Assembly: GCF_000817735.3 (NCBI RefSeq)
Contig: NZ_JTJC03000012.1
Span: forward strand, 29,689 to 84,104
DNA from: Scytonema millei VB511283
GTDB lineage: Bacteria > Cyanobacteriota > Cyanobacteriia > Cyanobacteriales > Chroococcidiopsidaceae
Length of the DNA: 54,416 bases
Direction of reading: 5' to 3'
The notes beneath the pieces are model-generated. The model did no database searches. It was given only the letters and a program-made list of their open reading frames with translations, and was not told the origin of the DNA. This document shows, in pieces, positions 49,913 to 53,178 of this stretch. How positions within the stretch are numbered: the first letter of the stretch is position 1; the number at the start of each line of letters is the position of its first letter. The position numbers and the translations under genes are program-made.

Positions 49913-50455
49913 GTGATTAGCGCCAGTCAAGTGTTAGAGCAACCTGTGGTCGTGTTTTCGCAAAATTACCTACCCATTAGCCGCATCAACGTCAAGCGTG
50001 CGATCGCGCTGTTGATGCTGGGTAAAGCTGAAGCACTTGATTTTGGGCAAGAGACAGAATTATTTGTGCGATCGCCCAATTTAGTCATGGCTGTTCCCTC
50101 CTATATTCGTCTAACGTTTACCAGTACAGAACGAATTTGGAAGATTCCCCCTGTGAATCGCAGGGAAGTGTTACGAAGAGACAATTACGCTTGTCAATAT
50201 TGCGGTAATAGCAAGCGCTTGACAATCGATCACGTCGTTCCTCTATCTAAGGGTGGATTACATACGTGGAATAACGTTGTGGCAGCTTGCGAACAATGCA
50301 ACCAGTATAAAAGCGATCGCACTCCCCAGCAAGCAGGGATGTTACTGCACTCTAAACCTAAAGCACCGATTCATCCAACAGTTGCTTTTGCCGAAAAATT
50401 CTGGCGCTCGGAGCATCTCCCGCCAGACATAGGAGGAAACTCTATCTCATGCTGA
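49913..50455 (+). CDS. HNH endonuclease family protein
   Basis: A 180-residue protein common in cyanobacteria. The N-terminal half ('VLEQPVVVFSQNYLPISRINVKRAIALLMLGKAEAL') is followed by an HNH core: 'NYACQYCGNSKRLTIDHVVPLSKGG' (CxxC, DHV) and 'WNNVVAACEQCNQYKSDRTP' (second CxxC, N, K). A putative nicking or double-strand nuclease, perhaps in repair rather than restriction; no methylase is near. Start is GTG 49913 with a GGAGGAG ribosome-binding site at about 49901-49907. Its end overlaps the next gene by 7 bp. Confidence 0.9.
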   Translation: MISASQVLEQPVVVFSQNYLPISRINVKRAIALLMLGKAEALDFGQETELFVRSPNLVMAVPSYIRLTFTSTERIWKIPPVNRREVLRRDNYACQYCGNSKRLTIDHVVPLSKGGLHTWNNVVAACEQCNQYKSDRTPQQAGMLLHSKPKAPIHPTVAFAEKFWRSEHLPPDIGGNSISC

Positions 50456-50838: not shown

Positions 50839-51304
50839 GCAAGTCAAAAGTCAAAAGTTAAAAGTCAAAAAGAAGATCGATTCATGATGGATAGCTTTTT
50901 GGCTTAACTGTTCTTGCAAGTTGAACACAGCTAATTAGGGCGCATGGATTTATTTATGCGTCCTACTTACTGGTAATTGGTAATTGGTAGTTGGTAGTTG
51001 GCGTTCTTCTTTGCGTGTATTCTGTGAGAAACTACTTTGCGTCTTTGCGTCTTTGCGTGACACAGAATCATATCTATTGTTGATGCACGCATACCTAGTT
51101 CGATCTGTGATGCGATCGTGCCTGGATAAATAAACTACCAGTACCATCCATCTATAATACAATTCTGTAACACGTTGAAACCTAGTTTTTGCAATGATTA
51201 CAGCCAATTTCCAAAAAAGTTTCTCCAACCCCTTGACAATTTTGTAGCATAGTTTGTAGTATAAACGTAGTAAATCAAAAGACAAATCTAATCCCGAAAC
51301 GATA
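50839..51304. other. 470-bp spacer with three repeat types
   Basis: AAAAGTC/AAAAGTT heptads at 50842-50873, TAATTGG/TAGTTGG heptads at about 50972-51003 and TTTGCGTC octamers (CTTTGCGT units) at 51032-51058. Beyond these there is a promoter-like pair at 51233-51262. No gene is called. Confidence 0.7.
51233..51262 (+). promoter_or_regulatory. sigma-70-type promoter candidate
   Basis: TTGACA at 51233-51238 matches the -35 consensus in full, and TAGTAT at 51257-51262 matches the -10 at four of six bases, with an 18-bp spacer. It would start a transcript near 51270, ahead of the 64-residue gene and possibly of the tRNA array. Confidence 0.5.
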
Positions 51305-51499
51305 ATGTTTTACATTCAGATAATAAAACGAGGTGAAAATTCATCTAATTTTCCCTGCGATCGATTTGATTCTGATTGCGATCGCACAGCATTAGAATCG
51401 GCACAAAAGAGAAATTCCCGCCGTGCAAAAGCCAAAGCCATTGAAACTATCCGTAATATTCAACAGATTTATTACTTAGAAAATCAGTGGTGTTTGTAA
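51305..51499 (+). CDS. small basic hypothetical protein
   Basis: A 64-residue basic protein ('DRTALESAQKRNSRRAKAKAIETIRNIQQIYYLENQWCL') from ATG 51305, preceded by a promoter-like pair. No domain recognised. It is 54 bp ahead of the first tRNA of the array on the same strand. Confidence 0.4.
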   Translation: MFYIQIIKRGENSSNFPCDRFDSDCDRTALESAQKRNSRRAKAKAIETIRNIQQIYYLENQWCL

Positions 51500-51553: not shown

Positions 51554-51649
51554 CGGGGTGTAGCTCAATTGGCTAGAGCGTTCCGTTGTCTGCGGAAAGG
51601 TTGCGGGTACTCTTCGAGAAGGCTTCGCCTACAAGTCCCGTCACCCTGG
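51554..51649 (+). tRNA. tRNA-Asp (GUC) with 22-nt insertion in the T loop
   Basis: Acceptor CGGGGTG / CACCCTG (one G-U pair, C1-G72 end), D stem GCTC/GAGC, anticodon stem TTCCG/CGGAA with loop TTGTCTG giving GUC, T stem GCGGG/CCCGT. The T loop is split after its first T by 22 nt (51609-51630). Without it the loop would be TACAAGT, close to TTCAAGT, and the gene a normal 74 nt. The discriminator is G73 as in tRNA-Asp. It may be a pseudogene or need removal of the insert. First gene of the array. Confidence 0.75.
51609..51630. repeat. small dispersed element inserted in tRNA-Asp
   Basis: Begins ACTCTTCGAGAAG and ends GCTTCGCCT; flanked by GGGT and ACAAGTCCC of the T arm. The first 13 bases are identical to the insertion in tRNA-Ser(CGA) at 52886. 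This resembles the very small mobile repeats (SDR type) described in Nostoc-group genomes. Confidence 0.8.
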
Positions 51650-51654
51650 TTTGA

Positions 51655-51684
51655 TGTAGAGACGTTACATATGGCGTTTCTACA
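51655..51684. repeat. TGTAGAGACGTTACATA palindrome between tRNA genes
   Basis: A diverged copy of the 30-bp palindrome at 21179-21208, placed between the Asp and Cys tRNA genes. Confidence 0.8.
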
Positions 51685-51692
51685 ATCATCAC

Positions 51693-51766
51693 GGCTGAGT
51701 ACCCAAGTGGTTTAAGGGAGAAGTCTGCAAAACTTCTATGCGTGAGTTCAAATCTCACCTCAGCCT
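51693..51766 (+). tRNA. tRNA-Cys (GCA)
   Basis: Acceptor GGCTGAG / CTCAGCC, anticodon loop CTGCAAA on a GAAGT/ACTTC stem, T loop TTCAAAT, discriminator U73 typical of tRNA-Cys. No CCA encoded. Confidence 0.88.
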
Positions 51767-51776
51767 TGGGTAACGT

Positions 51777-51848
51777 CGCAGCGTAACTTAAAGGTAAAGT
51801 CCCAAGCTCATAACTTGGTATATGCGGGTTCAAATCCCGCCGCTGCTA
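51777..51848 (+). tRNA. tRNA-Met or Ile2 type (CAU)
   Basis: Anticodon loop CTCATAA on CCAAG/CTTGG, D stem ACTT/AAGT, T arm GCGGG-TTCAAAT-CCCGC, acceptor GCAGCG/CGCTGC with an unpaired C1-U72. The anticodon stem is not the GGG/CCC initiator type, so it reads AUG as elongator, or AUA if the wobble C is modified. Confidence 0.8.
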
Positions 51849-51854
51849 CCTCAT

Positions 51855-51928
51855 GCAGGGATGGTGTAACTGGCTAACACGTCGGTCTCCAAAACCGAAG
51901 AATCTGGGTTCAAATCCCAGTCTCTGCG
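51855..51928 (+). tRNA. tRNA-Trp (CCA)
   Basis: Acceptor GCAGGGA / TCTCTGC (one G-U), anticodon stem TCGGT/ACCGA with loop CTCCAAA, T arm CTGGG-TTCAAAT-CCCAG, G73 as in tRNA-Trp. Confidence 0.9.
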
Positions 51929-51949
51929 TTCCCTTTTATTAACAAGCAT

Positions 51950-52022
51950 GGCTCCATCGTCTAGCGGTCAAGGACATCCGACTTTCTATCGGAGAACACG
52001 GGTTCGAGTCCCGTTGGAGCTT
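51950..52022 (+). tRNA. tRNA-Glu (UUC), array copy
   Basis: Acceptor GGCTCCA / TGGAGCT, anticodon stem TCCGA/TCGGA with loop CTTTCTA, T arm ACGGG-TTCGAGT-CCCGT. It differs clearly from the stand-alone tRNA-Glu at 45736, so it is a diverged second copy. Confidence 0.88.
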
Positions 52023-52028
52023 TTCTAA

Positions 52029-52118
52029 GGAGAGGTGGCTGAGCGGCTCAAAGCGTCCTCCTGCTAAGAGGAAACGGGCGATTAACGTCCGTCGCAGGTT
52101 CAAATCCTGCCCTCTCCG
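52029..52118 (+). tRNA. tRNA-Ser (GCU)
   Basis: Type II tRNA of 90 nt. Acceptor GGAGAGG / CCTCTCC, anticodon stem TCCTC/GAGGA with loop CTGCTAA, long variable arm with ACGGGCG/CGTCCGT pairing, T loop TTCAAAT, G73. Confidence 0.9.
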
Positions 52119-52289
52119 CCTTAAATCAGTTACCAGTTTTACAGTGACCAGTGACCAGTTTTTCAAGAGGGATGCGCGACCCTACTTGAAACTTGCTACC
52201 TGTAATACGTGGTTGACTCTGACTTCCACAGGAAAATTATTGTTTTCACTGGTCGCTGATAAATGGTTACTGGTCACTGTTCTCGTCAT
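52119..52289. repeat. 171-bp gap in the tRNA array with GACCAGT-type repeats
   Basis: TGACCAG/TTACCAG heptads occur at both ends (about 52129-52160 and 52250-52280), in inverted sense relative to each other. No tRNA is recognised in the middle. Confidence 0.65.
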
Positions 52290-52363
52290 CCCCTGGTAGC
52301 TCAGTTGGTAGTAGCGCCTGTGTGAAGAACAGGAGGGCGTTGGTTCGATTCCAACCTGGGGGG
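52290..52363 (+). tRNA. tRNA-Phe (GAA)
   Basis: Acceptor CCCCTGG / CTGGGGG with two wobble pairs, anticodon stem CCTGT/ACAGG with loop GTGAAGA, T arm GTTGG-TTCGATT-CCAAC. The D arm pairing is imperfect (GCTC with GCGC) and the discriminator is G rather than the usual A. Confidence 0.75.
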
Positions 52364-52370
52364 CTGTCGT

Positions 52371-52442
52371 TGCCTTATAGCTCAATGGTAGAGCGACGCG
52401 CTGTTAACGCGGGGGTTGTAGGTTCGAGTCCTACTGAGGCAG
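52371..52442 (+). tRNA. tRNA-Asn (GUU)
   Basis: Acceptor TGCCTTA / TGAGGCA, D arm GCTC/GAGC, anticodon stem CGCG/CGCG plus an A-G mismatch with loop CTGTTAA, T arm GTAGG-TTCGAGT-CCTAC, G73. Confidence 0.85.
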
Positions 52443-52445
52443 TAA

Positions 52446-52518
52446 AGCCCTGTGGTGTAATTGGCAACACATCTGAATTTGGCTCAGATGACTCCAGGTT
52501 CGAGTCCTGGCGGGGCTG
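52446..52518 (+). tRNA. tRNA-Gln (UUG)
   Basis: Acceptor AGCCCTG / CGGGGCT, anticodon stem TCTGA/TCAGA with loop ATTTGGC, T arm CCAGG-TTCGAGT-CCTGG, G73. Starts only 3 nt after the Asn gene. Confidence 0.87.
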
Positions 52519-52529
52519 TCAAATTATGC

Positions 52530-52577
52530 TTGCCAACGTCTGCGTGCGATTTCAAATCTCGCCGTCCGCTTGGCTAT
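52530..52577 (+). pseudogene. possible 3'-half tRNA remnant
   Basis: GCGA-TTTCAAATC-TCGC resembles a T arm, followed by CGTCCGC as a possible acceptor strand. No matching 5' half or anticodon arm is found upstream. It sits in the gap between tRNA-Gln and tRNA-Arg where another array gene would be expected. Confidence 0.3.
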
Positions 52578-52581
52578 TTAT

Positions 52582-52654
52582 GGGAGTGTCGCCTAAAGGA
52601 TCGGGCATCGGTCTTCTAAACCGATTTGTGTAGGTTCGAGTCCTGCCACTCCTG
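52582..52654 (+). tRNA. tRNA-Arg (UCU)
   Basis: Acceptor GGGAGTG / CACTCCT, anticodon stem TCGGT/ACCGA with loop CTTCTAA, T arm GTAGG-TTCGAGT-CCTGC (one G-U pair), G73. Confidence 0.86.
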
Positions 52655-52659
52655 CTGAT

Positions 52660-52732
52660 GGGTCTGTAGCTTAACTGGGAAAGCGTCTACCTTGCAAGTA
52701 GAAAGATGTGGGTTCAAGTCCCACCAGTATCC
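52660..52732 (+). tRNA. tRNA-Ala (UGC), imperfect acceptor stem
   Basis: Anticodon stem TCTAC/GTAGA with loop CTTGCAA and T arm GTGGG-TTCAAGT-CCCAC are normal. The acceptor GGGTCTG / CAGTATC has two mismatches (T4-T69, G3-A70), and the position 3:70 G-U identity pair of tRNA-Ala is not present. Charging with alanine is doubtful. Confidence 0.7.
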
Positions 52733-52737
52733 ACTTT

Positions 52738-52813
52738 GGTGTCTGAAGTCGAAGCGGTCGAGACACTGGTTTGTGAAACTAGCCATTAGCGAGTTCGAGT
52801 CTCGTCGGACACC
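52738..52813 (+). tRNA. tRNA-His (GUG) including G-1
   Basis: Acceptor GTGTCTG / CGGACAC with an extra G-1 pairing C73, as needed by histidyl-tRNA synthetase. Anticodon stem CTGGT/ACTAG with loop TTGTGAA, T loop TTCGAGT. Confidence 0.85.
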
Positions 52814-52817
52814 CCTT

Positions 52818-52930
52818 GGAAACTGCTGCTGAATGGTCGGTAACCTGTCTCGAAGGCAGGAATATAGCAGAGATGCTGTAGGGGTACTCTTCGAGAAGCC
52901 GCTCCGCGTCTACGATCCCTCCAGTTTCCG
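52818..52930 (+). tRNA. tRNA-Ser (CGA) with 26-nt insertion in the T loop
   Basis: Acceptor GGAAACT / AGTTTCC, anticodon stem CCTGT/GCAGG with loop CTCGAAG, variable arm with AGCA/TGCT, G73. The T loop is split after its first T by 26 nt (52886-52911), the same place as in the Asp gene. Without it the T loop would be TACGATC and the gene 87 nt. The D arm is also weak. Confidence 0.65.
52886..52911. repeat. small dispersed element inserted in tRNA-Ser(CGA)
   Basis: Begins ACTCTTCGAGAAG as in the Asp insertion, then CCGCTCCGCGTCT. Flanks are GGGGT and ACGATCCC, matching the Asp flanks GGGT and ACAAGTCCC. Confidence 0.8.
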
Positions 52931-52933
52931 TGT

Positions 52934-53016
52934 GGAAGATGCTGCCTAGTGGAGGGCAACTTGTCCTGAAAACAAGAGCAGGGTAATACCTGGGGGTTCG
53001 ATTCCTCCATCTTCCT
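52934..53016 (+). tRNA. tRNA-Ser (UGA) with C33
   Basis: Type II tRNA. Acceptor GGAAGAT / ATCTTCC, D stem TGCC/GGCA, anticodon stem CTTGT/ACAAG with loop CCTGAAA, variable arm CAGG/CCTG, T loop TTCGATT. Position 33, almost always U, is C. The discriminator is U where tRNA-Ser usually has G. Confidence 0.7.
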
Positions 53017-53020
53017 TTAC

Positions 53021-53091
53021 CCACTGGAAGCCAAAAAGTGCGGCGCTGTGCCGATAACGCAGAGTAGGAGGGGCAGTACCTCCCCAGTGGA
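53021..53091 (+). tRNA. tRNA-Ile-like (GAU) with abnormal T loop and C33
   Basis: Acceptor CCACTGG / CCAGTGG, D stem GCC/GGC, anticodon stem CTGTG/CGCAG with loop CCGATAA (C33), T stem GGAGG/CCTCC but loop GGCAGTA instead of TTCRANY. It is the least normal member of the array and probably not functional as a standard tRNA. Confidence 0.5.
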
Positions 53092-53105
53092 TGACTAATA
53101 GTAAA

Positions 53106-53178
53106 GGGGATATAGCTCAATCGGCAGAGCAGGAAACTCTTAATTTCAAGGTTGTAGGTTCAATCCCTACTATCCCCA
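53106..53178 (+). tRNA. tRNA-Lys (CUU)
   Basis: Acceptor GGGGATA / TATCCCC, D stem GCTC/GAGC, anticodon stem GGAAA/TTTCA (outer pair mismatched) with loop CTCTTAA, T arm GTAGG-TTCAATC-CCTAC, A73. Last gene of the array. Confidence 0.87.

Follow-up and report, generated by a model that had tools for sequence, protein, structure and literature searches.

Small hairpin elements in the T loops of tRNA genes of a secondary tRNA array from Scytonema millei and of related cyanobacterial arrays

Small dispersed repeats (SDRs) are units of about 21-27 nt that insert into their own copies and into heptamer repeats; SDR families of Nostoc were reportedly described by Elhai et al. in 2008. The elements analysed here are similar to SDRs in size, in their small hairpins with varied paired stems, in the presence of copies within copies and in the use of heptamer and HIP1-like sites, a likeness in general traits. 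They differ from SDRs in that T loops of stress-type array tRNAs are recurrently hit and enriched per site, and in that one base is replaced. We know of no report of an SDR with a recurrent T-loop target and base replacement. The kind of element is known, but neither T-loop inserts nor T loops as an SDR target nor a recurrent one-point T-loop target with a replaced base were found in the literature searched; an earlier mention in papers on SDRs or trn operons is possible. SDR5 inside HIP1 is cited in the available part of PMC4390886.

The closest described system to the array itself is the TrcR-repressed trn operon of Anabaena PCC 7120, for which TGTAGTAT has been reported as the TrcR operator motif (PMC10272220, available part). 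The array studied here shares with this operon a redundant set of tRNA genes, a tRNA-Asp(GUC) gene and TGTAGTAT at the promoter, whereas its gene number is lower (about 15 compared with 26). The available part of PMC10272220 contains no insertion or T-loop terms.

The tRNA array and its two interrupted genes

The window, a stretch of 54,416 nt from a genome of 5.97 Mb in 17 contigs, ends with a secondary tRNA array of the trn-operon type (51554..53178, forward strand). Twelve of its approximately 15 genes were called by ARAGORN, Rfam added a tRNA-His (52739-52813), and our own scanner added tRNA-Asp and tRNA-Ser(CGA), both of which are split and were not called by ARAGORN. A putative promoter on the same strand (51233..51262) consists of TTGACA (51233-51238) and, 16 bases beyond it, TGTAGTAT (51255-51262). 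By its sequence this promoter resembles that of the Anabaena trn operon, with TGTAGTAT as a putative TrcR operator. The motif was detected within 600 bp upstream of 74 of 100 arrays, the full 600 bp being present for 82 of them.

Between the promoter and the first tRNA gene lies an open reading frame of 64 aa (51305..51499, forward strand) with no Pfam match. With tblastn it matched 17 loci, one of which is the window, and every match lay no further than 2 kb upstream of an array; the ORFs upstream of the 16 other arrays are weakly similar to it (27-42% identity). Further upstream, an HNH endonuclease gene (Pfam HNH_5, HNH) was found at 49913-50455 on the forward strand. Counting the window, 28 of 112 loci have an HNH-like gene no more than 2 kb upstream of their array, and the gene is possibly part of a unit carrying the array. 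A tRNA-like sequence with an acceptor-like stem of 7 bp (53021-53091, forward strand) is located between tRNA-Ser(UGA) and tRNA-Lys; it has GGCAGTA in place of the T-loop sequence TTCRANN, and several matches to the array run over it. A phage or plasmid origin of the array was considered and rejected. Matches were found in 257 phage records, none over more than 80% of the query and with at most 9% covered among the 30 matches listed, and in 30 plasmid records, again none over more than 80%. The first 16 of these plasmids are cyanobacterial with nearly all matches array-like, and 13 of the other 14 are non-cyanobacterial and match in short pieces.

The first gene of the array, tRNA-Asp(GUC) (51554..51648, forward strand), is interrupted in its T loop between T54 (51608) and C56 (51632). 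Comparison with uninterrupted genes identified the insert as a mini-element of 23 nt, A-CTC(TTC)GAG-A-AGGC(TTC)GCCT-A, which replaces T55 (51609..51631, forward strand); an intact Asp gene in the related locus L136 differs from the window gene in 1 of the 72 other bases. The T loop of tRNA-Ser(CGA) (52818..52929, forward strand) is interrupted between T54 (52885) and C56 (52913) by the 27 nt element ACTCTTCGAGAAGCCGCTCCGCGTCTA (52886..52912, forward strand), which replaces base 55. Dispersed copies of the same form are present in this and related genomes; no same-length intact relative of the Ser(CGA) gene was found among the genes of the 112 loci. The resulting T loops measure 29 nt in tRNA-Asp and 33 nt in tRNA-Ser(CGA). 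The earlier note had described a split at the same position in both genes by 22 and 26 nt: the position was correct, and the two figures are the net gain that results when 23 and 27 nt replace one base. Its shared core of 13 bases, ACTCTTCGAGAAG, was recovered in both inserts; the second hairpins differ.

All pairs of the acceptor stem (7/7) and of the anticodon stem (5/5) are formed in both split genes, and the T stem of tRNA-Ser(CGA) contains one mismatch (49-65). The inserts alone fold no better than shuffled sequences (z about -0.1). Intact housekeeping genes for tRNA-Asp(GUC) and tRNA-Ser(CGA) are present elsewhere in the genome, so that the split array copies are redundant.

Interrupted T loops in related arrays

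For comparison we assembled 15 plasmid stretches and 101 regions (4 + 97) from related genomes. The 112 counted loci comprise the window, L068, 12 plasmid stretches, 97 regions and L089, which replaced the plasmid stretch of PCC 7524; L077 and L081, copies of L126 and L124 with the same record length, and L069-L071, with 0, 0 and 1 tRNA, were left out. Our scanner recognises cloverleafs whose T loop is either normal or extended to the form T[A...A]C. It identified 1948 unique tRNA genes, 1864 of them normal and 84 interrupted. The interrupted genes belong to 28 anticodon classes and carry 58 distinct insert sequences. They are spread over 42 of the 100 loci that contain 8 or more tRNAs; in the other 58 loci the scanner found no T-loop insert. 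Among the loci without a T-loop insert are all eight of one genus (g58), one of which (L162) has an insert in tRNA-Phe. Since long loops beginning with TA and ending with AC were found 89 times in the array loci and 5 times in the reversed sequence, they are not due to chance; the corresponding figures for normal T loops are 2030 and 2 (duplicates included in both comparisons).

An intact relative of the same length and anticodon was available for 81 of the 84 interrupted genes and lacking for three. The mismatches to the nearest intact relative (n=81) amounted to 0 in 12 cases, to at most 1 in 31, to at most 5 in 62 and to at least 11 in 16. Base 55 of this relative is T in 79 cases and G in two, and therefore the insertion turns T-N-C into T-[A...A]-C at the cost of one base.

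Seventy-three of the 84 inserts are 20-28 nt long, ten are composites of 42-62 nt, and one of 13 nt in L203 is probably mis-parsed. The first hairpin is perfect in 42 of 48 unique simple inserts, and the paired stems vary by compensatory changes (CCC/GGG, CTC/GAG, CCGC/GCGG, CTGC/GCAG, TGCGC/GCGCA and others). In L203, elements in two T loops are located at TT^C in place of T^C. A T-arm insert without a recognisable tRNA body was observed outside the Nostocales, in Kovacikia (L087, Leptolyngbyales).

Closely related genes can carry different inserts. Five tRNA-Glu genes with bodies 93-99% alike contain four different inserts at one point, and the tRNA-Asp genes of the window and of L140, which are 94-95% alike, contain two. 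The tRNA-Cys bodies of L187 and L190 are identical, and in the L190 gene the loop of the first hairpin holds an additional element. On sequence grounds, differing inserts in near-identical genes may be read as turnover by repeated insertion. They also argue, together with the 58 distinct insert sequences, against a spread of one original insert by recombination between tRNA genes, as the earlier note had considered. Such a spread would account for the composite insert common to two tRNA genes in L186 (with one base difference), for another composite common to two genes in L176 and for a simple insert common to two genes of L076. The T stems around the shared L186 composite differ, however, so that gene conversion would require tract ends at T54 and C56. 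In the window itself, where the second hairpins of the two inserts differ and the related Asp gene of L140 carries another insert, recombination is not needed; it may act elsewhere, as in L186 and L176, and as a general explanation we regard it as quite unlikely.

Target sites in T loops, anticodon arms and dispersed copies

The elements are not confined to tRNA genes. Dispersed copies of the small form were detected in 10 of 12 genomes searched and of the larger form in 12 of 15. The window genome contains no exact match to the small form and five to the larger one, one of which is the Ser insert. The earlier note had suspected very small dispersed repeats, and the dispersed copies support this; an absence of similar elements from the rest of the genome, which it had named as evidence to the contrary, was not observed for the larger form. 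Of 42 unique dispersed sites located outside T loops, 38 have T before the element and 31 have C after it. Several dispersed sites lie within heptamer repeats, some elements are found in HIP1-like sites, and nested copies are present in the loops of other element copies. In L228 and L283 (centre, reverse strand), tRNA-like sequences away from arrays contain the same T-loop insert; L228 also gave two YrlA (Y RNA-like) matches that, at 37.7 and 35.8 bits, did not reach the cut-off of 69.

An element search free of the T[A...A]C requirement yielded 109 unique copies in the array loci, which had been chosen for their tRNAs; a strict test placed 93 of these copies in T loops. The other 16 comprise five in T loops with a changed form or position, four nested copies and seven at HIP1-like, other tRNA or spacer sites. 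Inserts at unrelated positions in related arrays, which in the earlier note would have spoken against its reading, are thus mostly missing, with a few present at other tRNA sites. Counts from the 97 'elsewhere' rows of a broad structural search were not used, many of these rows being reverse reads of T-loop elements or unrelated hairpins. Genome-wide, most copies are located outside T loops: 8 of 58 unique places (from 60 of 120 matches) are in T loops, and one of the eight is a tRNA-like sequence.

Per site, the picture is different. An element occupies the T loop of 84 genes out of 1948, compared with none of about 530 GTTCRA sites outside T arms (p = 2e-9; 893 sites outside scanner-found tRNAs minus 363 probably undetected T arms), which bears out the T-loop site preference proposed in the earlier note. 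Other GC-rich hairpins of the array loci with TTC in the loop were filled in 0 of 171 cases (p = 0.0015 compared with T loops); both zeros are based on manual reading of the 16 copies outside T loops. The sequence GTTCRA was therefore rejected as the sole target rule, and the hairpin loop as the sole rule was weakened. Neither sequence alone nor a hairpin alone is sufficient. Hairpins are modestly over-represented at dispersed sites (14 of 44 compared with 15%, p = 0.004).

A second position in tRNA genes is used on the other DNA strand. In six arrays (L086, L129, L138, L139, L162, L182) an element is located in the anticodon loop of tRNA-Phe on the opposite strand, whose loop sequence is TTC, compared with 69 intact Phe genes. 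After removal of the element, with one T restored in L138, L162 and L182, ARAGORN called tRNA-Phe(gaa) in five of the six; for L139, where no T was restored, it called a tRNA of undetermined anticodon. This excision test was used for the tRNA-Phe and tRNA-Arg cases, the rest being confounded by false queries and 6-base T loops. The strand that is hit in the Phe loop does not correspond to the tRNA, which makes DNA a likelier target than folded RNA, and the antisense position of these inserts favours a DNA target over splicing.

In L087, L089 and L184, tRNA-Arg(ACG) also has an element in reverse orientation following its anticodon arm. Group I introns possess a catalytic core of at least about 200 nt, and the inserts described here (13-62 nt) are too short for this class; an Rfam scan of the window array revealed no intron family. 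In the available part of PMC5733544, 'group I introns' of 22-49 nt are reported in cyanobacterial tRNA-Arg, Gly and Lys. The array tRNA-Arg(ACG) of Nostoc sp. PCC 7524 contains ttcgcgtagcgtggcgtagcc after the anticodon arm, and by its sequence the 'intron' of this gene is probably a reversed mini-element.

In archaea, tRNA introns can lie in T loops, and their removal needs the splicing endonuclease EndA and a bulge-helix-bulge motif. An intron-like insert that is cut from the tRNA precursor, with the halves joined by RtcB, would fit the position of the T-loop inserts at one point, their construction from small hairpins and the largely intact bodies of the interrupted genes. RtcB deserves mention because Anabaena TrcR represses both the trn operon and rtcB (PMC10272220, available part). 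Exact excision of the whole insert would, however, leave a T loop of 6 bases without base 55. The occurrence of the same elements in non-tRNA DNA, the different inserts of near-identical genes and the six antisense elements in the anticodon loop of tRNA-Phe likewise argue against an intron. The intron-like removal raised in the earlier note hence gained no direct support and met some evidence against it; we consider it highly improbable. As far as their sequences and positions indicate, the elements behave as mobile DNA and not as introns.

Condition of the split genes and significance

A full tRNA body was found for 69 of about 89 interrupted genes and for 1596 of 1881 others (p about 0.13, computed with 69/88); 31 of the 100 interrupted candidates have no full body, and 11 of these were judged by eye to be non-elements. 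The bodies of the interrupted genes are nearly as intact as the others and give no sign of impairment. A58, which the search did not require, is present after the insert in 93 of the 100 candidates (CAA in 68, CGA in 25). This conservation, together with acceptor and anticodon stems that are intact in most interrupted genes, would agree with an insert that is retained in a functional mature tRNA and bulges out at the elbow, directed away from the tRNA body. The near-normal intactness is equally explained by recent insertion, though, and the interrupted genes have no base 55. Folding predictions for both window genes preserve the T stem but pair bases of the insert with bases of the T loop. The loss of base 55 and this predicted pairing make normal function unlikely; a tolerated extension is thus an unlikely explanation, and the split copies are probably impaired.

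We consider it likely that the inserts are SDR-like mini mobile elements for which the T loops of spare array tRNA genes are an enriched and repeatedly used target, that most events are recent and independent, and that the split copies are probably impaired. The elements, mostly 20-28 nt with two tiny hairpins, would insert at T-N-C and replace the middle base; to our knowledge, no enzyme for the insertion of such mini-elements has been identified. Spare tRNA genes of TrcR-type arrays offer, in their T loops, a recurrent target that is strongly enriched per site, with most copies located elsewhere in the genome. Target recognition may take place on DNA, perhaps on an extruded hairpin loop. The inserts may persist because housekeeping copies make the array genes dispensable, and we infer that most insertions were recent and independent of each other.

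More tentatively, some of the smallest known mobile elements may have a structure-guided target, in which T-N-C in a tRNA hairpin loop is used on either DNA strand (the T loop in sense, the Phe anticodon loop in antisense) and one base is swapped for the element. If this is true, tRNA arrays are natural traps that record element insertion. The dozens of filled and empty pairs in nearly identical tRNA genes define the boundaries, the replaced base and the target; they make the insertion of 20-nt repeats testable with a defined target and bear on how such repeats move. In cyanobacterial arrays, some tRNA genes can escape a tRNA finder, as happened here, or have inserts that were earlier called introns, and the stress-induced tRNA pools may differ between strains.
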